From the NCBI RefSeq assembly GCF_018283645.1, contig NZ_JAGSXH010000068.1:1-33411 (forward strand): DNA of 33,411 nucleotides, given 5' to 3'. Source of the stretch: Actinocrinis puniceicyclus (GTDB taxonomy: Bacteria > Actinomycetota > Actinomycetes > Streptomycetales > Catenulisporaceae). Every line of letters begins with the position of its first letter. Positions within the stretch are counted from its first letter, which is position 1. Made by a program: the position numbers and the translations under genes. The notes below the pieces were generated by a model. It was not told the origin of the DNA, did not search any database, and saw only the letters and a list, made by a program, of their open reading frames with translations. Shown here piece after piece: positions 3,477 to 23,354 of this stretch.

Positions 3477-3482
3477 TACCTT
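3477..3482 (+). promoter_or_regulatory. -10 element of the sigma-like gene at 3490
   Basis: TACCTT is followed by 7 bases and the GTG at 3490. No Shine-Dalgarno sequence precedes that GTG, which supports a leaderless start. I see no clear -35 element. Confidence 0.5.
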
Positions 3483-3489
3483 GCCTTCC

Positions 3490-4746
3490 GTGACTGACCG
3501 CGAATTGGTTACCGCACTGAGGGCTGGCGACCGGCTCGCGGCCGGCCAAATCTATGACATATACGGAACGCGACTGTACGCGTACTGTCACGAACTGCTC
3601 GGGGACCACAAGGTTGCCGGCGACGCGTTGCGGGACGCCTTCATCGTGGCGGTCAATCGCATTCGCGAGCTGCGTCAGCCCGATGAGCTCGGGGCGTGGC
3701 TCTACGCGCTGACGCGCGCCGAGTGTCATCGCGTCGGAGTCAGCGAGGAGGTCCCGGCGGACGCGGGCGACGCGGCGCGCGGAGACCGGCTCGCCCGGCT
3801 TACGCTCGACTGTTACGCGATGCTGCCGCCGGAGACCCGCGAGGTCCTGGACCTGGCTTTCCGGCACCGCCTCGTGGACACCGACCTGGCGCGGGTGCTC
3901 GGGATCTCCGAGCAGGAGGCGACGGATCAGGTCGGGGTGGCGCAGGCGGACCTTGAGCATGCGCTGCTCGTCGTGCTGGCCGCGCGCACAGGTGACCCGA
4001 AGTGCCAGGAGGCGGCGGAGCTGGGGCGCAGGTTCGACCAGCTCGATGGCCGCGGCGTGGCTGCCTGGGTGCAGTCGGCGATACGGCATGTCGAGAAGTG
4101 CACCGTCTGCAGCGCGACCGTGAAGAACCGCCGGCCGCTGCGCTTGTTCGAGGAGTTGCCGCATTCGTTCATGCCGCCGGGCGTGCGTTCCCGGGTGCTG
4201 GAGAGCCTGCGTGATCCGGCCGGCGCGGCGTTCGCGGCGCGGATCGCGGAGCGGGCCGGCCGGTTCGACGAGAACGGTTTTCCGCTGGCCGGCGCGCGTG
4301 GCGGCGCGAGAGGGGGGCGCAAGTGGCTGGTGCCGGCCGGTTTCGCGGCGGCGGTTGCGGCTCTCGGCGTGCTGCTGTACGTGATGGTGGGCCAGCATTC
4401 GCCCCCGACCAGCCCGGCCGCGAACGCGACCGGCGGTGCCAGCGCGTCGGCGAGTATGACGAACAGCGCGACTCCCACGGATCTACTGCTGCCCTTGACG
4501 CCCTCCGCATCCGCTTCCACGTCGGCATCGGTATCGGCTTCGCCCTCTGCTCAAACGTCGGTTCCGGCGGCCCAGATGACGACGCCGCGGTCGGTCACCA
4601 CGACCACGCCGCCGTCCAAGCCGACCACGAAGCCGCCGTCGAACCCGCCGACGACCACGTCGAGCACACCGCCGACGACACCGTCCTCATCGCCGACTAC
4701 ACCATCTGCGCCCGCGTCTCCGTCGGCTAGCAGCACTACTCCCTGA
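3490..4746 (+). CDS. Membrane-anchored sigma-70-like protein with anti-sigma-like motif
   Basis: The protein has 418 residues. Residues about 1-75 resemble sigma-70 region 2 (TALRAGDRLAAG, LYAYCHELLGD, GAWLYALTRAECHR). Residues about 105-160 resemble region 4 (LPPETREVLDLAF, then an HTH-like LARVLGISEQEA). A zinc-type H200-x3-C204-x2-C207 motif as in ZAS anti-sigma domains follows, then a segment containing PPGVRSRVLESLRDP, a membrane helix at about 279-301, and a Ser/Thr/Pro-rich outer tail. The modules suggest a one-polypeptide sigma/anti-sigma membrane sensor, but the region-2 acidic surface is diverged, so true sigma activity is unproven. GTG 3490 was chosen from the -10 spacing; TTG 3481 in frame is an alternative. 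The next gene is a paralogue. Confidence 0.75.
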   Translation: MTDRELVTALRAGDRLAAGQIYDIYGTRLYAYCHELLGDHKVAGDALRDAFIVAVNRIRELRQPDELGAWLYALTRAECHRVGVSEEVPADAGDAARGDRLARLTLDCYAMLPPETREVLDLAFRHRLVDTDLARVLGISEQEATDQVGVAQADLEHALLVVLAARTGDPKCQEAAELGRRFDQLDGRGVAAWVQSAIRHVEKCTVCSATVKNRRPLRLFEELPHSFMPPGVRSRVLESLRDPAGAAFAARIAERAGRFDENGFPLAGARGGARGGRKWLVPAGFAAAVAALGVLLYVMVGQHSPPTSPAANATGGASASASMTNSATPTDLLLPLTPSASASTSASVSASPSAQTSVPAAQMTTPRSVTTTTPPSKPTTKPPSNPPTTTSSTPPTTPSSSPTTPSAPASPSASSTTP

Positions 4747-4824
4747 CCCGAGTTCGGCAAAGCTCACCCGCGTGAGTGGTTCTACGGTCATGCGTTGTCA
4801 CTCACTCGGGCGATAGACCAGCGA

Positions 4825-4858
4825 GTACGGCATGTCGGCATGCGGTACCGCATACCGT
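4825..4858 (+). promoter_or_regulatory. Palindromic operator candidate overlapping the -10 element of the gene at 4866
   Basis: ATGCGGTACCGCAT (4840-4853) is a perfect 14-base palindrome. It extends to 22 bases with one mismatched pair (4836-4857). CGGCATG occurs as a direct repeat at 4828-4834 and 4836-4842. The palindrome covers most of the -10 hexamer TACCGT (4853-4858), which lies 7 bases before GTG 4866. This arrangement suits a repressor or autoregulator; the protein that binds is unknown. Confidence 0.45.
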
Positions 4859-4865
4859 CACCCTC

Positions 4866-7079
4866 GTGAAGGCTGACGATTCCCGCGACAGGTGGCACGC
4901 CGAAGATCCCGGCGCGCTCGACGTGCTCGGCAAGCCGCTGCGGACCGAGCCGTTCCGTCCGACCGGCGACGCGGCAGACGGCTGGGGTCGAGCTGCGGCC
5001 TACGACGCATACGGGGACGGCCTGCACACGTACGCGATCTGGTCACTCGGCGACCACGATGCCGCGGTCGACGCGCTCTACTGCGCGTTCGTCATCGCGG
5101 ACCGGAATGTCACGCAACTGCGGCAGCCAGACCACATCCAACCCTGGCTCTACGCGATCCTCCGGCACGAGTGCCACCTGCGCAGCGCCGCACCCCGTGA
5201 TTCCGCCGCCGATCCGGCACCGGTCTCCTGGAGGCTGCACCCTCCGGCCGGCGCCGCGGATCCGACCGGGTCGCTGGCGGCGCTGGAGCGCAACCTGCGT
5301 CGCGCCGAGTTCCACTCGCTGGAGTGGCCCGAATCCGAGGGACTGGACCCGGCGCACCGCGAAATCCTGGAACTGACCATCCGGCACGGCCTCGACAGCA
5401 ACGGCCTCGGGCTGGTGCTCGGGCTGGGACAGGGCGCGGCCCGCGGCCGAGAGACCGAGGCGGCGGGCGATGGCGATGGCGACGGCGCCGACGCCCCCGG
5501 CTTCGGCGTGCTCGCGGACGCGTGGCGCGAACTGGAACGCTCACTAGCCGCCGCGGCCGTCGCGAAAGCGTCGCGAGAACACTGCGCGCGACTCGCCGAA
5601 CTGACCCGCGATTGGCCCGGTCGCCTCACGGCGCGGTTGCGGACGCCGCTTACCGATCACGTCGACGCGTGCACACGTTGCCAGCATTACCTGCACACAG
5701 TCATCGGCACTCCATCCGCGCCGACGATCCTGCCTTTCATCGCCGCGCCGCGCTCGCTGCGCAAGCTCGTCCTGGCCGAGTTGCGCGACCCGGACCTGGC
5801 CTCACGCGCCGGCGTCGACCACGACCTGATCGCCGCCCGGATCCGGCGCTTCACGCCGGACGGCTTCCCCAAGACCCCGCCGTCACCGCCCGGACGCGGC
5901 CGCGCCGGCCGCCGAGCCGCAGCACCTCGGTCCGGCGCGGCGCGCCCCGGGCGGACCGAGCCGCCGCCGGACGTCACCGCACCGGTGATCGTCCCCGACG
6001 TGAAGACGGGACGCGTCGTCGAACACCGCGCGGACACCGCCGCACCGCGCGTCTGGCCGCAGGCTGAAAAGAGCTTTGACGCGGAGTCAGCGGACTTCTA
6101 CTGCGCGCCGGGCAGTTGGGCTGCCCGCGTGCTGCCCCCGGACGTGAATGCGCACACCCCGTCGGTGCAACTCGCGGACGTGCGCGTCGTGAATGCGTAT
6201 CCTGCCGTCCCCGGCAACCAGCCCCGTCCGGCGCGGCGCAGACCGCGACCCCTGCGGCAGGCGGTGCTCTCCGCCGTGGCGCTCACCGCGGTCGGTGCCG
6301 CCGCGGCGACCGCGAGCGCGCTGCTCGGGACCGACTCGGACGGTCACACGACGCGGCTCTCGGAATCCACCCCGTCGCAGGGCTCTGTGAGCGTTCCCGG
6401 GGGTGGCGGCCGGCTGACCGCTTCCGTGAGCTCGGCGCCGCTGCCGGCCGCCTCATCGTCAGCCGGCGTGTTGAAGGTGCGTCGTACCGGCGTCCGCGCA
6501 CCCGGGGCCGCCGCCGGAGACCCGAGCGATCCGGCGGGCGGCGCACCGGATCCCGGTTCCGGCCCGGCCTCCGGCCCGAGCGCGGCAGCCGCCGACTTCC
6601 ACGTCAGCGTCAACCAGCGTGCCGCGGACCCGAACAGCGTGACCATCCTGCTGCGCAACACCGGCAGCGCGCCGGTGTCCTGGCAGGCGACGCCGCAGGA
6701 CTCCTGGATCGTGCTCAGCCGCGGTTCCGGCACGCTCGACGGCGGGCAGTCCCTGACGATCACCGCGACGGCCACAGCCGCGGCCCCGACCGGGCCGTGG
6801 ACCAGCAAGGTCGCGTTCGCACCGGGCGGCTCGGTGGTGGTGTTTCAGGGCGGGAGCAGCGACGCATCCAGCGCGCCGGCGAGCCCGTCGGCCTCCGGCG
6901 GCGCGACAGGTTCGACGCCGCCCGGCAGCCCGTCCGGCGGATCGACCGCGCCCGCGCCCCCGACCGCCGACGCCTCGGCGCACAGCGCGCACCCGGCGGC
7001 GGCGCGACTCACGCACACCGTCGCCTTGAGAAGAGGCGGCAGCCGGGGATCGGCCCCGTCGTCGCCGGCCGCCGCATAG
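4866..7079 (+). CDS. Large membrane-anchored sigma-70-like protein with BACON-like ectodomain
   Basis: This 737-residue paralogue of the preceding gene has the same module order: a region-2-like segment (about 41-106, ending PWLYAILRHECHLR), a region-4-like segment (LDPAHREILELTIRHGL, then a degenerate HTH interrupted by a Gly/Asp-rich insert), H265-x3-C269-x2-C272, an LRDPDLASRAG segment matching the LRDP segment of the neighbour, and a long Pro/Arg-rich linker. A membrane helix lies at about 466-486. The outside part is Ser/Pro-rich and holds a beta-sandwich at about 575-662 (SWIVLSRGSGTLDGGQSL), which resembles BACON-type domains. GTG 4866 is supported by TACCGT 7 bases upstream; the frame is open to 4776. 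The sigma-like part is more degenerate than in the neighbour, so it may regulate rather than direct RNA polymerase. Function is inferred. Confidence 0.72.
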   Translation: MKADDSRDRWHAEDPGALDVLGKPLRTEPFRPTGDAADGWGRAAAYDAYGDGLHTYAIWSLGDHDAAVDALYCAFVIADRNVTQLRQPDHIQPWLYAILRHECHLRSAAPRDSAADPAPVSWRLHPPAGAADPTGSLAALERNLRRAEFHSLEWPESEGLDPAHREILELTIRHGLDSNGLGLVLGLGQGAARGRETEAAGDGDGDGADAPGFGVLADAWRELERSLAAAAVAKASREHCARLAELTRDWPGRLTARLRTPLTDHVDACTRCQHYLHTVIGTPSAPTILPFIAAPRSLRKLVLAELRDPDLASRAGVDHDLIAARIRRFTPDGFPKTPPSPPGRGRAGRRAAAPRSGAARPGRTEPPPDVTAPVIVPDVKTGRVVEHRADTAAPRVWPQAEKSFDAESADFYCAPGSWAARVLPPDVNAHTPSVQLADVRVVNAYPAVPGNQPRPARRRPRPLRQAVLSAVALTAVGAAAATASALLGTDSDGHTTRLSESTPSQGSVSVPGGGGRLTASVSSAPLPAASSSAGVLKVRRTGVRAPGAAAGDPSDPAGGAPDPGSGPASGPSAAAADFHVSVNQRAADPNSVTILLRNTGSAPVSWQATPQDSWIVLSRGSGTLDGGQSLTITATATAAAPTGPWTSKVAFAPGGSVVVFQGGSSDASSAPASPSASGGATGSTPPGSPSGGSTAPAPPTADASAHSAHPAAARLTHTVALRRGGSRGSAPSSPAAA

Positions 7080-7132
7080 CCGCGCCGAACCCGTGCCGGT
7101 TCACACCCGGCGCCCGCGCGCGGCTCCCGGCT

Positions 7133-7888
7133 TCAGCGAACCGAGGCCGGGTGCGGCGCGAGCGGTTCCTTCGACGCCAGATGCGAGGCGCACAGTGCGG
7201 CGAGCGTTTCGTAAGCGGCCCGTCCCATCAGCTCGATGAGCTCCGCCTCGTACGACACGTACACTGGATCGGAGGCCGTGTGCGCCTCCGTGTTCCCGGT
7301 GCACCACCAGTTCAGGTCGTGGCCGCCGGGACCCCAGCCGCGCCGGTCGTACTCGCCGATCGTGATCAGCAGCACCTTGCTGTCGTCCGGGCGCTGGATC
7401 CAGTCGTAGGTGCGCCGGATCGGCAGCTGCCAGCACACATCCGGCTTGGTCTCCAGCGGATGGCGACCCTCGCGCAGCGCCAGGGCGTGCAGCGCGCAAC
7501 CCGCGCCGCCGGGGAACCCGGGCCGGTTGAGGAAGATGCAGGCACCCTCCTGTACACGAGTCTGCCGGTCGCCGTCCGGGTCGATCTCGGTGATCGCCAG
7601 CCGGCCGCCGCGCCGGGCCGCCTCGCGGTGGAACTGCCAGGTGTCCGCGGTCAGCCGGCGCGCGGCCTCGCGCACCCGCTTCTCGTCGGCGGCGTCCGAG
7701 TAATGCGCGCCGAGCGTGCAGCAGCCGTCGGCGGGCCGGTCCGCGTGAATGCCCTGACAGCCAGAGCCCCAGATGCACCGCCAGCGCGAGCAGAGCCAGG
7801 TCAAGTCCGCGCGGAAAACCTGCTCGGGGTTGTCCGGATCGGGGAACTCGACCCAGGCTCTGGGGAAGTCGAGGTTTACTTCGGGCAC
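7133..7888 (-). CDS. Conserved Cys-rich actinobacterial protein of unknown function
   Basis: The protein has 251 residues with no signal peptide or membrane segment. Cysteines cluster at 33, 38, 44, 56, 57, 116, 130, 151 and 195, in contexts such as [25 protein letters not shown] and WWCTGN. I recognise it as a widely conserved actinobacterial protein without assigned function. The cysteines suggest a metal or Fe-S site, with a loose resemblance to YkgJ-type clusters; this is inference. The start is GTG 7888: TAGGCT lies 6 bases upstream and there is no Shine-Dalgarno, so it is probably leaderless. It converges with the gene at 4866 and is divergent from the ECF gene at 8042. Confidence 0.8.
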
Positions 7889-8041: not shown

Positions 8042-8584
8042 ATGGGTGATGAGCTCGGATTCGACGAGTTCTACGCCGCATCGTTCCGGAGACTGGTAGG
8101 CCAGCTCTACGCGATGACGGGGAGCTTGGCCGACTCGGAGGATGCGGTTCAAGAGGCATATGCACGTGCCTGGCAACGATGGGACAAGGTACGCGAGTAC
8201 GGCGCTCCCGAGGCTTGGATCAGGACAGTCGCCTACCGGATAGCGGTTTCCGCGGGGCGCAAGGCGAAGAACCGACTGCTGGCGCACGGCAGACACGGCG
8301 AGGGCCGGGGGTTCTCGCCCGGCCTGAGCCCCGACCATCTCGCGCTGATGTCCGCGCTGCGCAGGATCTCCGCCGACCAGCGGCGTGTGATCGTGTTGCA
8401 CTACCTCGTCGGCCTTTCGGTCGACGAGATCGCGGACGAGACCGCGTCGCCCGCCGGAACGGTCAAAGCATGGCTGTCCAGGGGGCGCAAAGCCATGGCG
8501 CCGTACGTATCCGAGTTCGCCGACACTGCGCCCGGAACCCTTCAGACGAAGACGATCCTGCGCACCGAAGCCGGAGAGGAGTAG
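8042..8584 (+). CDS. SigE-family ECF RNA polymerase sigma factor
   Basis: A 180-residue two-domain sigma factor that would redirect RNA polymerase to a stress or envelope regulon. Region 2 covers about 5-75 (FDEFYAASFRRLVGQLYAMTG, DSEDAVQEAYARAWQRW, APEAWIRTVAYR). Region 4 covers about 115-170 (ISADQRRVIVLHYLVGLSVDEIA, then SPAGTVKAWLSRGRKAM). It fits the actinobacterial SigE/SigL-type ECF group. ATG 8042 follows AGGAGG by 9 bases in a purine-rich leader. Only 6 bases separate its stop from the next gene, a membrane protein, so the two form an operon of sigma factor and probable regulator. Confidence 0.92.
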   Translation: MGDELGFDEFYAASFRRLVGQLYAMTGSLADSEDAVQEAYARAWQRWDKVREYGAPEAWIRTVAYRIAVSAGRKAKNRLLAHGRHGEGRGFSPGLSPDHLALMSALRRISADQRRVIVLHYLVGLSVDEIADETASPAGTVKAWLSRGRKAMAPYVSEFADTAPGTLQTKTILRTEAGEE

Positions 8585-8590
8585 AGACCG

Positions 8591-10039
8591 ATGCCTGAAA
8601 GCTTCCAGAATCTGTTGTCCGCCATCGCGCAGAGCGCATCCGCGTCTGCCACGCCGGTAGGCGCCGACGCCGCGCGACGGCGGGGGCGGCAGCGCTCTGT
8701 TCGCCAGCGCGCCGTGGCTTGCGTGGCGGCGACCGTGCTGGTCGGCGGGTCGGCCACAGTGGCCCTGGCCGTTGCCGCCGGACACGGAGGCACGCCGAAG
8801 CCCATCACGAACTCGGGAACCGCGACGCCGGACGCTGGCAGTGCGCCGCCGTCACCCAGCGCCGGCCCGAGCACGCCCGGCTCGCCGAGCGCCGGCGCCA
8901 GCCCCGGCGCCGGTGCCACCGGGTCCGGCATGATCGGCGACCTGAACACCATCGTGCCCGGCGCATGGACCTCTGCCGGCGCGTTCGCGCTCACCCCCGG
9001 CAGTTGGACGGCGAACATGGCCCGGCCCGCGATCCACACGGCCGACCGGCAGTGGTTCTACTCTTGCCACTCCGCCGACACCCTCACGCATCTCGGCGCG
9101 CTGGGATATCAGGAGCTGACGTACGGCGCGACCATGGGCGGCTCTCCGGTCGGGGCGGACCAGGTCCTGTTCTTCTTCCGCTCGAACGGCGCGGCTGAGC
9201 AGGCGCTGGGTACGGTCCAGAACGACTACGCGCACTGCCCCGAACCGGCGACGGGCGTCAACGGTGTACCGATGACCGGAACCGTCCAGCAGACCGAGAC
9301 ACTCGACGGCGGTTACGCCTGGGTACACACCTTCCGCACTGCCCAGGGCAGCCCCGCGCAGCCGGCGGACATCCCCGCCGACAACCACGAGTTCTTCGTC
9401 CAGCGCGGCGACGCCCTCGAAATGGTCTGGTTCGGCGGAAACCCGACGGTGGACGATTCGCGCAATGACCTGACGTTCCTCGCGGATCTCGAAAGCAACC
9501 TGTGCGTGTACGGCGGCCACTGCCCGGCGACCACGCATCCGCTCGCCGCCTCCATCAACGCCACAGGCTCGACGACGCTGCGCCTCGGCGGCAGCGCGAT
9601 CGAGTTCACCGTCGGCGTCACCAACGAGAGCAACGACACGATCCGGAACATCACGCCGGTCGTCTCGCTCGGAAGGTGCACCTGCGTCAACACGCCGCTA
9701 CCGATCATGCCCCCGGGCGTGCTCCAGCGCTGGGACTCGGCAGGCGGCACCTGGAAGACACAGTTCTACGACACCGAGGGCAGCGGTATGGACTTCGTGC
9801 TGAGCCCCGGGGTCGTGCAGGTGCCCCCGTTCGATCTCGGGCCCGGACAGAGCGTGACGTTCCGATACCGGCTCCAGCTCGACCCCGCTTCGTCGGACAA
9901 GCTGCCCGCGCAGTACCACGTGTCGAACGGGACGGCGTCCGTCGGAGTCTCGCTCGTGCATCCGATCGCCAACTCGGCCAATGCCCAGATCGGGAACGCC
10001 TCGGCCGCGAGGCTACCGGTCACGGTCGTCCTGAACTGA
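8591..10039 (+). CDS. Single-pass membrane protein paired with the ECF sigma factor
   Basis: The protein has 482 residues: a short basic cytosolic part (1-40), a membrane helix at 41-64, a Ser/Pro/Gly linker to about 110, then a large outside region. Residues about 120-310 have paired cysteines (YSCHS, AHCPEP, LCVYGGHC) and resemble a PknH-type extracellular sensor domain. About 320-482 is an Ig-like beta domain (LGRCTCVN, LGPGQSVTF). Its place 6 bases behind the ECF gene suggests it controls that sigma factor, but the cytosolic part lacks the HxxxCxxC of ZAS anti-sigma factors and is short, so this role is inference. ATG 8591 has GGAG 9 bases upstream. A strong hairpin follows the gene. Confidence 0.85.
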   Translation: MPESFQNLLSAIAQSASASATPVGADAARRRGRQRSVRQRAVACVAATVLVGGSATVALAVAAGHGGTPKPITNSGTATPDAGSAPPSPSAGPSTPGSPSAGASPGAGATGSGMIGDLNTIVPGAWTSAGAFALTPGSWTANMARPAIHTADRQWFYSCHSADTLTHLGALGYQELTYGATMGGSPVGADQVLFFFRSNGAAEQALGTVQNDYAHCPEPATGVNGVPMTGTVQQTETLDGGYAWVHTFRTAQGSPAQPADIPADNHEFFVQRGDALEMVWFGGNPTVDDSRNDLTFLADLESNLCVYGGHCPATTHPLAASINATGSTTLRLGGSAIEFTVGVTNESNDTIRNITPVVSLGRCTCVNTPLPIMPPGVLQRWDSAGGTWKTQFYDTEGSGMDFVLSPGVVQVPPFDLGPGQSVTFRYRLQLDPASSDKLPAQYHVSNGTASVGVSLVHPIANSANAQIGNASAARLPVTVVLN

Positions 10040-20497: not shown

Positions 20498-21718
20498 TCA
20501 GCCGCTCGGCGAGGGGCTCGATCCCGCACCGCCGAGGCCGAGGTCGATCCCGGGCAGGCCGGGCAGCAGCGGCGGCAGGTTGACGCCGGTGGACGGCAGT
20601 ATCGGCAACGGCAGCTGCACTCCTATCGTCGTCGAGGCCGAGGCCGAGGGCCGTGTGCTGGAGCCGGCCGACGGTGAATTCGCCGCCTCGCCGCTGGGTG
20701 GGGCAGGGGATTCCCCGGCGCCGCTCGCGGGCGCGGACGGGTGCGCGGACGGCGACGCGGCTCCCCGCGCAGAGGCTCCCGGACCGGTCGTGGTGCTCGA
20801 TCCCGGCGGTGCGCCCGTCGCCGGCGCGGAACCGGTGTGCTGCGGTACCGCGGCGGCCGCTGCCTGGAGCCTGCGGTACAGATCGTCCATCAGGGCGACG
20901 ATCTGCGGCGGGCGCTGCTGGAGCGTCAGCGGCAACTGCCAGGTCAGGTCCGCCACCCGCTGCCGCTCGGTGAGCAGGAAGTCCGACAGCAGGTGCAGTG
21001 CCTGCTCGTCGCCGTGCTCGCGCACCTGGTCGAGCAGCAGTGCGCCGCCGTCCGAGATCATCGAACGAAGTTCGGTGAGCGCCGGATCCAGGTAGGCCGC
21101 GGTCGGCGAACCTGGCAGCTCGGCGTCGCGCCGCGCCAGCAACGCGTCGATCTCGGACAGCCGGATGTCGGCGAGGTGCAGGTATTGGCCGCCGCGCGCG
21201 GTAGGCGAACCGGGCAGCGACAGCTGGATGTTCTCGAACATCTTCTTCGCGCTGTAGAGCGGATCGCCGGGCACCGCCCCGGCGGACGCGATGGCGATGC
21301 CGCCGACCGAACCGGTCGCCACCGCGACGCCGACGCCCGCGGCCAGCAGCCGGCGCCGCCATGCAGGGGAGACGCCGGCCGGTGAGCGCCGGGTCGCGAC
21401 CGGGCGGCGCAGTCCGGCGTGCCGCCCGCCGCGTTGGGCCGGAAGCCGCGACTGGCCCGCCTGTCCGGCCTGCCCGGACGCGGCGGTCAGTTCCGGGGTG
21501 AGCCGCACCAGTCGCTCGCGCAGCCGCGCCCGGAACGCCTCGTCCATTTCGGGCAGCGGAGAGGCGGCGCCCTCGACCCGGTGCGCGATCGCGACCAGAG
21601 TCGTCATCCGGGCGGCCGGCGGGGCCGTCGAACCGTGCGCCGCGCCCGCCTGGTCACTCGCGTGCGCGCCGCTCAGCGCGAGGTCGAACTCCTGGGCTCC
21701 GCCCCGGTGCCGTGCCAT
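20498..21718 (-). CDS. rsbN: RsbN-like membrane anti-sigma factor of BldN (DUF5667)
   Basis: In Streptomyces, RsbN holds the developmental sigma factor BldN inactive. The 406 residues comprise a cytosolic N-terminal part (about 1-120, with LRERLVRLTPEL), a membrane helix at about 124-147, a DUF5667 domain beginning GDPLYSAKKMFENIQL (from about 151), and a Ser/Pro/Ala-rich outer tail. ATG 21718 has AGGAGG 10 bases upstream. It lies directly downstream of the bldN gene, the arrangement known in Streptomyces, and its upstream gap holds a BldN-type promoter match. An LPSTG string near the C-terminus lacks a basic tail and is probably not a sorting signal. Confidence 0.88.
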   Translation of the reverse strand: MARHRGGAQEFDLALSGAHASDQAGAAHGSTAPPAARMTTLVAIAHRVEGAASPLPEMDEAFRARLRERLVRLTPELTAASGQAGQAGQSRLPAQRGGRHAGLRRPVATRRSPAGVSPAWRRRLLAAGVGVAVATGSVGGIAIASAGAVPGDPLYSAKKMFENIQLSLPGSPTARGGQYLHLADIRLSEIDALLARRDAELPGSPTAAYLDPALTELRSMISDGGALLLDQVREHGDEQALHLLSDFLLTERQRVADLTWQLPLTLQQRPPQIVALMDDLYRRLQAAAAAVPQHTGSAPATGAPPGSSTTTGPGASARGAASPSAHPSAPASGAGESPAPPSGEAANSPSAGSSTRPSASASTTIGVQLPLPILPSTGVNLPPLLPGLPGIDLGLGGAGSSPSPSG

Positions 21719-22025: not shown

Positions 22026-22940
22026 TCACCGCAGCGTTTCCGCCGGAAGCAGGCGCGCGAGCGTCCGGATCGCCCGATATTGCAGGGTTTTGATGGCTCC
22101 GTCGTTCTTGCCCATGATCTTCGCCGTTTCGGAGACCGACAGGCCGTGCAGGAAGCGCAGCGTCACACACTCCTGCTGCTGCGAGTTGAGCTGGCAGACC
22201 GCGTCGAGCAGAGCCTTGTTCGACAGGTAGGCCAGCACGCTGTCCTCGGGGGAGGAGACCGTGTCGTCCGAGTCGAGCATCTCGCCGGTCGGCACTTCGA
22301 GCCGGTACCGGCTGGACTTGTAGTGGTCGGCCACCAGGTTGCGGGCGATGGTGACCAGCCAGGCCCCGAAGTCGCGCCCCTGCCAGGTGAAAGTATTGAT
22401 ACGGCGAAGTGCGCGAAGGAAGGTCTCGCTGGTCAGATCCTCGGCCAGGGACCGATTGGAGACCCGGTAGTAGATGTAGCGGTAGACAGTGTCCGAATAC
22501 GCGTCGTAGAGCCGGCCGAAAGCCTCGCCGTCGCCCTCCTGCGCGGACTCCACCAGGGCGAGCATCCGGCGCGACTCCGCGTCCTGAGCGCGCTCGTCGT
22601 GGCGGTCCGGACCGGCGTGCCGCGGGCGCGGCGCACGCGAACGAGGGCGGCTGTGCGAGTGCCGGGGCTCGGGTCCGGGGTCTGCGTCCGAATCCGCGCC
22701 CGCGGCCGGCTGTTCCCCCGGTTCGGGCGGCGCCGGGGGCGGCACTGTGGGCGCCGGGGGCGGCGCGCCCGGCGCACCAGGCGGGGCGGCCGGCGGTTCG
22801 AGCGAGCGCGGCGCGGATCCCGGCCGGTACGGGACCGCCGAGGTCGCCATCGCGGCCACGGCCAGTCGCAGACCGGACAAGCCGACGGCGTCGGCTCTGA
22901 CGTCTCGAAGCACGGGACTCCAGCTGCTCGGGGGCTGCAT
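22026..22940 (-). CDS. bldN: Developmental ECF sigma factor BldN (AdsA) with N-terminal pro-region
   Basis: BldN directs RNA polymerase to genes for aerial hyphae such as chaplins, rodlins and bldM. Of 304 residues, about 125-304 match it closely: region 2 at about 138-205 (SDTVYRYIYYRV, EDLTSETFLRALRRI, FTWQGRDFGAWLVTIARNLVADH) and region 4 at about 245-295 (QQQECVTLRFLHGLSVSE, MGKNDGAIKTLQYRA). The N-terminal ~120 residues are Pro/Ala-rich and begin with a conserved-looking patch (VRADAVGLSGLRL), like the pro-sequence cleaved in Streptomyces but longer than the 86 residues I recall there. ATG 22940 lacks a strong ribosome-binding site; GTG 22913 after CTGGAG is an alternative. rsbN follows. 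Confidence 0.9.
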   Translation of the reverse strand: MQPPSSWSPVLRDVRADAVGLSGLRLAVAAMATSAVPYRPGSAPRSLEPPAAPPGAPGAPPPAPTVPPPAPPEPGEQPAAGADSDADPGPEPRHSHSRPRSRAPRPRHAGPDRHDERAQDAESRRMLALVESAQEGDGEAFGRLYDAYSDTVYRYIYYRVSNRSLAEDLTSETFLRALRRINTFTWQGRDFGAWLVTIARNLVADHYKSSRYRLEVPTGEMLDSDDTVSSPEDSVLAYLSNKALLDAVCQLNSQQQECVTLRFLHGLSVSETAKIMGKNDGAIKTLQYRAIRTLARLLPAETLR

Positions 22941-23354
22941 CAGTTCGCCTGGCGGGGCGTCGGAACGGCGCTCCACCGGCGTTACTGCTTTAACCGACGG
23001 CCTCCGCGCCGCGCATGGCGACATATGCGGAGCGCCGCCGGGGCGCCGGTCCGCGTGGGCTGCGGACCATCGGTCGCGGTCGGTGACGCCGACCGTGACC
23101 GAGCGTGTGAAGGCGGTCACCTTTTGTAGGCCGTTCCCACATCGTAGGGAAAACCGCTCCCTCGCGGGCGGGTTTGGCACGACCGGCCCGGTTGGCCGGA
23201 CGCCACACGAGAATACCGCTTAGTGTCCGCGAAGTTACTCCATGTGTCCGCAGTGGGCTAAGACGCATGTCTCAAGCATGGATGACAGCCTGATGGCGTG
23301 TCACTGCCCAGCGGACGATATGTCAGTTGCCGGGCCGGCTGGGGCCAAGCCCGT
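22941..23354. other. Long intergenic region upstream of bldN
   Basis: 414 bases without a convincing gene, holding the bldN control region on the minus strand. GTGAC/GTCAC strings recur at 23081-23120. A weak BldD-box-like 13-mer (TGACACGCCATCA, minus strand, 23303-23291) matches 6 of 8 fixed positions of the consensus I remember. GGGAAC at about 23136-23131 (minus) resembles an ECF -35 element. None of these is firm. Confidence 0.4.

Follow-up and report, generated by a model that had tools for sequence, protein, structure and literature searches.

A conserved tandem pair of diverged ECF sigma/zinc anti-sigma fusion proteins with rewritten promoter-reading surfaces in Catenulisporales

Two adjacent genes in a 33,411-nucleotide stretch of Actinocrinis puniceicyclus DNA (the window, meaning the whole stretch analysed) encode proteins, P1 and P2, which alignment and predicted fold identify as diverged tandem members of the actinobacterial family of ECF sigma/zinc anti-sigma fusion receptors. 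The fused layout is already known in actinobacteria, and the unusual point is the conserved pair with its rewritten surfaces. Residue patterns and models give about an even chance that P1 and P2 are neofunctionalised pseudo-sigmas of this known family, signalling via protein contact and not by promoter reading.

Results and discussion

P1 (418 aa, 3490..4746, + strand) has the order sigma2-sigma4-zinc anti-sigma (ZAS) segment-membrane helix-low-complexity ectodomain, and P2 (737 aa, 4866..7079, + strand) the order sigma2-sigma4-ZAS-long linker-membrane helix-BACON domain; the features described below all lie on the same strand. P1 was called from its open reading frame and orthologues and P2 from its open reading frame and its neighbour P1, each opening with a GTG (at 3490 and 4866) that is kept in 8/8 relatives. 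The two reading frames and their lengths are thus as given in the original prediction, which had been made from the sequence alone.

The sigma region 2-like domain of P1 (residues 1-84, 3490..3741) is an ECF sigma2-like helix bundle and matches Pfam Sigma70_r2 significantly (1.4e-5; 25.2 bits, cut-off 24). It is followed by a region 4-like domain with a helix-turn-helix (HTH; residues 105-160, 3802..3969; model helices 130-137 and 141-167), for which the region 4 profile scored 11.7 bits, below threshold. The ZAS segment (residues 161-221, 3970..4152), assigned by family alignment, carries the putative zinc ligands C172, H200, C204 and C207. Next comes the C-terminal clamp, a segment of sequence LFEELPHSFMPPGVRSRVLESLRDP (4153..4224, about residues 222-245), which lies inside family alignment columns 257-285. 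The membrane helix (about residues 280-303, 4327..4398; hydropathy 2.21 over 19 residues, model helix 283-301) has positively charged residues on its N side, and the ectodomain beyond it (4399..4743) is 82% S+T+P+A+G, with no recognised domain and no Pfam match.

In P2 the region 2-like domain (residues 38-106, 4977..5183) is recognised from its fold and from BLASTP similarity of 24-35% to the family, the Sigma70_r2 score being 12.6 bits, below threshold. This agrees with the earlier statement that the sigma parts are more diverged in the second gene. The region 4-like domain (residues 141-228, 5286..5549) is assigned by predicted fold, the Pfam region 4 profile leaving P2 unmatched. It contains an insertion at about residues 187-206 (5424..5483), seen in the alignment and modelled with low confidence. 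A three-sequence alignment had suggested that the HTH of P2 was destroyed; this was rejected, as Catenulispora P2, which is missing the insertion, aligns gap-free and the insertion falls in the HTH turn. The ZAS segment (5550..5720) has C240, H265, C269 and C272, all four kept in 9/9 orthologues. By alignment, a clamp segment ending in AELRDP follows (residues 286-308, 5721..5789), and then a long Pro/Ala/Arg-rich cytoplasmic linker (5790..6260), poorly conserved by alignment and dN/dS (0.38-0.94, a near-identical pair excepted). An Ala-rich membrane helix (about residues 470-488, 6273..6329; hydropathy 1.74, flanked by positive residues at its N side) precedes the ectodomain, whose BACON domain core (residues 581-636, 6606..6773; Pfam BACON_2, E 9.5e-9) was found in 7/7 P2 proteins scanned. 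Of the low-complexity ectodomains described in the original prediction, then, that of P1 is purely Ser/Thr/Pro/Ala-rich but that of P2 carries a folded domain. Likewise the HxxxCxxC residues (H200/C204/C207 and H265/C269/C272) were exact, but the site is CHCC, and its first ligand, C172 in P1 and C240 in P2, had been missed.

A search with the Sigma70_r2, Sigma70_r4 and zf-HC2 profiles, proposed as a check, succeeded for region 2 of P1; region 2 of P2 and region 4 of P1 stayed under threshold, zf-HC2 found no match in either protein, and the region 4 profile none in P2. The zinc site is therefore assigned from alignment to family members and the predicted fold. Of the relatives, 7/43 match zf-HC2, and the zinc ligands are kept in 42-43/43. 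These 43 relatives, spread across Actinomycetota and including a third paralogue, P3, in the source genome, share the order sigma2-sigma4-CHCC-membrane helix-ectodomain; Sigma70_r2 is found in 42, and Hx3Cx2C followed by a membrane helix in nearly all. P1 and P2 align with this family along their entire cytoplasmic part. Their sigma homology is secure, since both align with profile-matching members and both are predicted to fold as sigma2 plus sigma4. Single-chain sigma/zinc anti-sigma membrane proteins, with an outside domain tied to an inside sigma-like module, are thus supported, but the domain order is not unique as had been thought, being shared by the 43 relatives and by published fusions.

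Nor is fusion of two normally separate proteins a sign of novelty, as ECF48, ECF53 and IutY (PMC8999054) and ECF52 SCO4117 (PMC5826349) are published examples. SCO4117 of Streptomyces coelicolor resembles P1 and P2 in joining sigma, zinc finger and membrane helix in one chain, to which a region rich in Pro and an extracellular domain for carbohydrate binding also belong; many transcripts fall when SCO4117 is deleted (PMC5826349). Compared by description, that domain is a smart00776 module, of which the Pfam scan found none in P1 or P2: P1 has no folded outside domain and P2 has BACON_2 instead. P1 and P2 also differ from SCO4117, again by description, in being paired and in having rewritten promoter-reading residues. 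Their layout agrees, by description, with actinobacterial ECF48 and ECF53, whose members carry within the same chain a ZAS-type zinc finger plus one or two membrane helices (PMC8999054). IutY of Pseudomonas putida (ECF243) likewise joins sigma to a membrane anti-sigma part, but belongs to another sigma group with another signal, acting in iron-starvation cell-surface signalling with release by Prc and RseP (PMC8999054).

The pair is kept across the order. P1 orthologues (56-74% within Catenulisporales) were compared in the window, two Actinospica and six Catenulispora genomes; P2 adjoins P1 in 8/8 relatives read, and a gene-neighbourhood survey, as suggested in the original prediction, placed P1-P2 beside disA-radA in 9/9 Catenulisporales genomes. 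A -10-like TANNNT element lies 13 bases 5' of each GTG, TACCTT at 3477..3482 before P1 and TACCGT at 4853..4858 before P2, each in 9/9 orthologues; it may be a promoter element. In P1 orthologues it is placed at -13/-14 in 9/9, against a chance expectation of about 0.03 per sequence. An ECF-type CGTC -10 ahead of both genes was considered and dropped, as the simpler TANNNT fits 18/18 upstream regions. Rfam and tRNA scans of the whole window found nothing. The kept pair and shared upstream element bear out the idea that the two genes belong together.

Within lineages, dN/dS of sigma2 is about 0-0.13 in both proteins (0-0.11 in P1), which indicates that purifying selection acts on this domain in P1 and P2. 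The Ser/Thr/Pro-rich parts of the ectodomains gave 0.45-0.95 in nearly all comparisons. The best-conserved part of P1 is columns 257-285, which hold the clamp (80% between lineages vs 73% for sigma2); within the Actinospica lineage the clamp is 95%, sigma2 82% and the recognition helix only 45% identical. These data already contradict the view that the genes are functionless and decaying. Several family-conserved residues are indeed gone and Pfam region 4 matches fail, but the frames are intact and syntenic in nine genomes, sigma2 is constrained, and the replacements are fixed, not random; decay is highly improbable.

Predicted folds were confident, with pTM of 0.80 for P1 and 0.84 for P2, and both models showed the sigma-2 helix bundle and HTH anticipated by the original prediction. 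In both models sigma2 and sigma4 are arranged in the closed way seen in CnrH/CnrY and SigW/RsiW (4cxf, 5wuq), under a clamp helix, with the difference that those are two chains and each of P1 and P2 is one. The whole P1 model matched CnrH (Z 14.1, 2.6 Å, 154 residues) and SigW/RsiW (Z 13.9, 2.8 Å), and RNA polymerase-bound ECF sigmas (6jbq, 6kop) at about 27 Å rmsd only; the P2 model matched CnrH (Z 10.5, 3.0 Å, 143 residues). Z of about 10-14 for helical bundles is not decisive alone, and the closed state comes from predicted models of one family. Sigma4 of both models matches ECF sigma4, the HMM matches staying below cut-off. The CHCC spacing of RsiW is almost that of the pair, C-x26-H-x3-C-x2-C, the first gap being x27 in P1 and x24 in P2. 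Both chains are thus predicted to be closed, in an anti-sigma-bound-like state, on their own. PhyR was also among the structural matches of P1 (Z 8-10). This cytoplasmic alphaproteobacterial protein uses a sigma-like fold to bind an anti-sigma factor, not DNA; it has a receiver domain and lacks zinc clamp, membrane helix and outside domain, and so is a precedent for the idea only.

Promoter residues were mapped by alignment onto E. coli sigmaE and M. tuberculosis sigmaH. Family residues for -35 and -10 reading, kept in 80-90% of relatives, are replaced in the pair. The equivalents of sigmaE R176 and R178, which are -35 contacts (PMC6713349), are present in 34/43 and 37/43 family members and lost in P1 and P2. 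The second of these, the R198 equivalent in the recognition helix, is Gln in 9/9 P1 and Trp in 9/9 P2, and this helix carries a net charge of -4 in P1 and -3 in P2, against +2 in the family. In the -10 specificity loop, 9/9 P1 have Glu in place of R99 and Gly in place of R101. R196 is also lost in some Nonomuraea relatives, so the family tolerates change at that position. In P2 the core-binding-motif Asp is Cys (9/9), whereas P1 retains this Asp and the -10-pocket Trp in 9/9. With their promoter-reading surfaces rewritten in a kept pair, P1 and P2 probably do their signalling in some other way than ordinary sigma factors do. Of the roles first envisaged, the residue evidence favours decoy or co-regulator over a released promoter-reading sigma.

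The two residues retained by P1 leave room for a sigma with altered specificity. P1 and P2 would then be ordinary self-inhibited ECF sigmas, an outside signal leading to membrane proteolysis and the freed sigma transcribing its own regulon, in the case of P1 with a new promoter specificity. The layout equals that of fusions for which this is proposed (ECF52 SCO4117) or shown (IutY), sigma2 of P1 is strongly constrained, and its predicted fold is closed. The explanation nevertheless appears rather unlikely, given the acidic and poorly conserved recognition helix of P1, the acidic helix of P2 with its Trp, the reversed charge of the -10 loop and the missing core motif of P2.

The losses are also complementary: the zinc ligand C204 is Asp in 6/6 Catenulispora P1 and this Cys is never lost in P2, while the core-motif Asp gone from P2 is never lost in P1. 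After duplication P1 might have become the sigma2 side and P2 the zinc anti-sigma side, with P2 clamping P1 in trans and BACON sensing for both. The constant adjacency of the genes fits, and although a quick tree separates P1 from P2, with long branches meeting, a single P1+P2 clade is not rejected by the AU test (p-AU 0.71). Yet the clamp of P1 itself is its best-conserved part (80-95%), pointing to a self-clamp; P1 of the window and of both Actinospica has a complete zinc site; SigW is held by RsiW without zinc (PMC5358783); and each protein alone is predicted closed. Such a re-split is improbable.

For the pseudo-sigma explanation, the following mechanism can be put forward. The sigma module would be held shut at the membrane by its own clamp, which a signal from outside would loosen or cause to be cleaved; for P2 the signal could plausibly be cell-wall or other carbohydrate bound by the BACON domain. 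The exposed module would act by protein contact, without reading a promoter alone, unlike typical family members. P1 probably engages the RNA polymerase core or another sigma or anti-sigma partner through its conserved sigma2, and P2 would be the clamp- and sensor-bearing partner without a core-binding motif.

Conclusions

Fused sigma/anti-sigma receptors are known yet barely tested, with one studied ECF52 member and one IutY. The present pair is noteworthy in being order-wide, with an intact putative self-clamp and reversed charge on its DNA-reading surfaces. It is conceivable, if doubtful, that it forms a Catenulisporales receptor pair in which the fused module is now a non-DNA-reading pseudo-sigma whose signalling works through binding to RNA polymerase or to other sigma/anti-sigma proteins, P1 taking the polymerase side and P2 the zinc clamp and carbohydrate sensor. 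P3 and the P1/P2 pair offer, within one genome, a natural contrast for which receptor surfaces matter. If the explanation is correct, it would show that membrane receptors can take over sigma modules and use them for signalling through protein binding, much as PhyR does in the alphaproteobacterial cytoplasm.

Results and discussion

P1 (3490-4746, + strand; GTG start at 3490, 418 residues) and P2 (4866-7079, + strand; GTG start at 4866, 737 residues), separated by 119 bases, had been described as neighbouring membrane proteins with sigma2, sigma4, a zinc anti-sigma (ZAS) motif, a membrane helix and an ectodomain in one chain, an order considered unique to them. The zinc motif positions were exact in both. 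Pfam profiles bore out the sigma assignment in part: region 2 scored 25.2 bits in P1, above the cut-off of 24, and stayed sub-threshold in P2; for region 4, P1 was sub-threshold and P2 had no match; zf-HC2 matched neither. P2 has a BACON domain on the extracytoplasmic side of the membrane. The genome also encodes a third paralogue, P3 (locus L002), which is far more typical (region 2, 4e-14; region 4, 3e-6; weak zf-HC2 match) and its alignment to P1 and P2 spans the entire cytoplasmic part.

A single scan of 84,980 species genomes gave 58 loci. Leaving aside the P1 and P2 orthologue groups, 43 family members, including P3, have sigma2, sigma4, Cys...HxxxCxxC and a membrane helix followed by diverse outside parts; the domain order is therefore a family trait and not a novelty of the window. 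Fusions have also been published: in the actinobacterial groups ECF48, ECF52 and ECF53 an ECF sigma factor is joined to a probable ZAS domain with one or two membrane helices, and the sigma/anti-sigma fusion IutY is freed by proteolysis (PMC8999054). SCO4117 (ECF52) combines its sigma part with a zinc finger, a membrane helix, a Pro-rich stretch and a carbohydrate-binding module, and acts pleiotropically to activate development and the production of antibiotics (PMC5826349).

Two relatives on Streptomycetaceae megaplasmids, annotated as 'sigma-70 family RNA polymerase sigma factor' and nothing more, have CAP and AbfB (arabinose-binding) outside domains. The AbfB-bearing relative (L072:2471-4045, Streptomyces globosus plasmid) immediately adjoins an arabinofuranosidase gene, suggesting that its outside domain senses the substrate of that enzyme. 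Other actinobacterial tandem pairs of the family were seen at L027:4536-6050 and 6141-7193, and at L041:4564-5874 and 6016-7257; the second L027 copy lies at the end of a very long branch (1.8) and, like P1 and P2, retains neither of the recognition-helix arginines. The Mycobacterium deserti matches at L060, close together on opposite strands (3524-5336 in frame coordinates, - strand; 4980-6257, + strand), are perhaps divergent paralogues.

Two genomes of Actinospica and six of Catenulispora/Catenulisporales contain an orthologue of P1 (65–74% across the cytoplasmic part), each with a P2 orthologue downstream on the same strand (8/8), and P1 was present in all six genomes sampled from the Catenulisporaceae, the window's own included. 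The neighbourhood survey placed the pair beside disA–radA in 9/9 loci; on the other flank, the gene at 7133-7888 and a ppx-type gene are common to most loci with sufficient contig reach. In both proteins, purifying selection on sigma2 is strong (dN/dS 0–0.13 within lineages), the P2 BACON domain is intermediate (0.26–0.62 within lineages) and the Ser/Thr/Pro-rich ectodomain parts, at 0.45–0.95 in nearly all comparisons, are not under strong purifying selection.

The P1 and P2 groups are each well supported in the tree, and their stems are long (1.34 changes per column for P1 and 1.23 for P2) compared with the end branch of P3 (0.22). A quick tree splits P1 from P2, but long branches meet there and a tree holding them together was not rejected (p-AU 0.71). 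It is therefore possible that both arose by a single tandem duplication followed by rapid change.

The GTG starts of both genes are kept in the eight relatives. A TANNNT hexamer starts 13–14 bases upstream of the GTG in all 18 upstream regions of the nine genomes (3477-3482 before P1 and 4853-4858 before P2 in the window), the chance expectation being 0.01–0.03 per sequence, although the genomes are related and the trials thus non-independent. The variants, in the window and in the other loci (L013-L020), are mostly TAACGT, TAGCGT or TACCGT, then C. The hexamer looks like the −10 element of a leaderless transcript, one for each gene, and its occurrence before both suggests shared control.

The window holds further ECF genes. 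A typical ECF sigma (about 8042-8584, + strand; region 4, 1.9e-14) is followed by a 482-residue protein with a likely membrane helix (8591-10039, + strand); this couple was not found at the equivalent place in the relatives read. Another ECF sigma (22026-23180, - strand), with a long N-terminal stretch in the present reading, adjoins a DUF5667 protein (20498-21718, - strand).

P1 and P2 (nine each) were compared with the 43 family members using P3 numbering. Two arginines mark the recognition helix of the family, R196 (in 34/43) and R198 (in 37/43); their counterparts in E. coli sigmaE are by alignment R176 and R178, which contact the −35 element (PMC6713349). R198 is replaced by Gln in all P1 (9/9) and by Trp in all P2 (9/9); R196 is lost in 8/9 P1 and 9/9 P2. 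In the −10 specificity loop, located by alignment to sigmaH (PMC6411747), R99 has become Glu and R101 Gly in 9/9 P1. Net charge changes from +2 in the family to −4 in P1 and −3 in P2 for the recognition helix, and from +1 to −2 and −1 for the loop. The R196 equivalent is also absent from six Streptosporangiaceae members (five Nonomuraea and one MAG; L024, L029, L035, L046, L058, L062), possibly a second case of drift from −35 reading.

One chief rival explanation is that these are ordinary released ECF sigmas with a new specificity. A conserved recognition helix would be expected of a sigma with a fixed promoter, and that of P1 is poorly kept: no other cytoplasmic element of P1 is less conserved (45% within the Actinospica lineage; sigma2 82%, clamp segment 95%). 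Among Mycobacteriaceae and Nocardioides relatives, conservation of this helix is 69–76%.

ECF sigmas have a QD/E core-binding motif, whose Asp is retained in P1 and is Cys in 9/9 P2. The zinc ligands, present in 42–43 of the 43 family members, are kept in 9/9 P2, and C204 of P1 is Asp in 6/6 Catenulispora. The losses in P1 and P2 are complementary, which suggests the other chief rival, a re-split pair with P1 as sigma and P2 as anti-sigma. RsiW holds SigW without zinc (PMC5358783), and so the loss of C204 need not open the clamp.

AlphaFold2, given sequences from the window and loci only, produced confident models of P1(1-315) (pLDDT 86.7, pTM 0.80) and P2 (pLDDT 86.7, pTM 0.84) that superpose on ECF sigma2 and sigma4. 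Both sigma domains of P1 superposed simultaneously on the anti-sigma-bound ECF sigmas of CnrH/CnrY (Z 14.1, 2.6 Å, 154 residues) and SigW/RsiW (Z 13.9, 2.8 Å), and on RNAP-bound sigmas (6jbq, 6kop) only at ~27 Å, i.e. the relative domain placement differs. The P2 model also adopts the anti-sigma-bound arrangement, with a looser fit (Z 10.5, 3.0 Å, 143 residues). Used by itself, Foldseek matched neither model at E <= 0.001; its top-ranked entries were the same anti-sigma-bound ECF sigmas (probability 1.00 for P1). In the closed SigW/RsiW arrangement the −10 surface is buried against sigma4 and the −35 surface is covered (PMC5358783). Because the models match this arrangement, a self-clamped resting state is predicted for P1 and P2.

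Conclusions

We propose that P1 and P2 are self-clamped membrane receptors descended from ECF/ZAS fusions, in which the sigma module may have moved from promoter reading to protein contact. The proposal is based on the architecture, the conservation and the fixed replacement of DNA-facing residues, together with the closed fold predicted by modelling. With the membrane orientation suggested by the positive-inside rule, sensing would occur via the P2 BACON domain and a signal would release or open the module, whose partner may be core RNA polymerase, a different sigma or anti-sigma factor, or P1 and P2 mutually. The pair first noticed is real, well conserved and partly as described, but a variant of a known layout. 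The fused layout itself is known; what is new in P1 and P2 is the proposed pseudo-sigma character of the pair.
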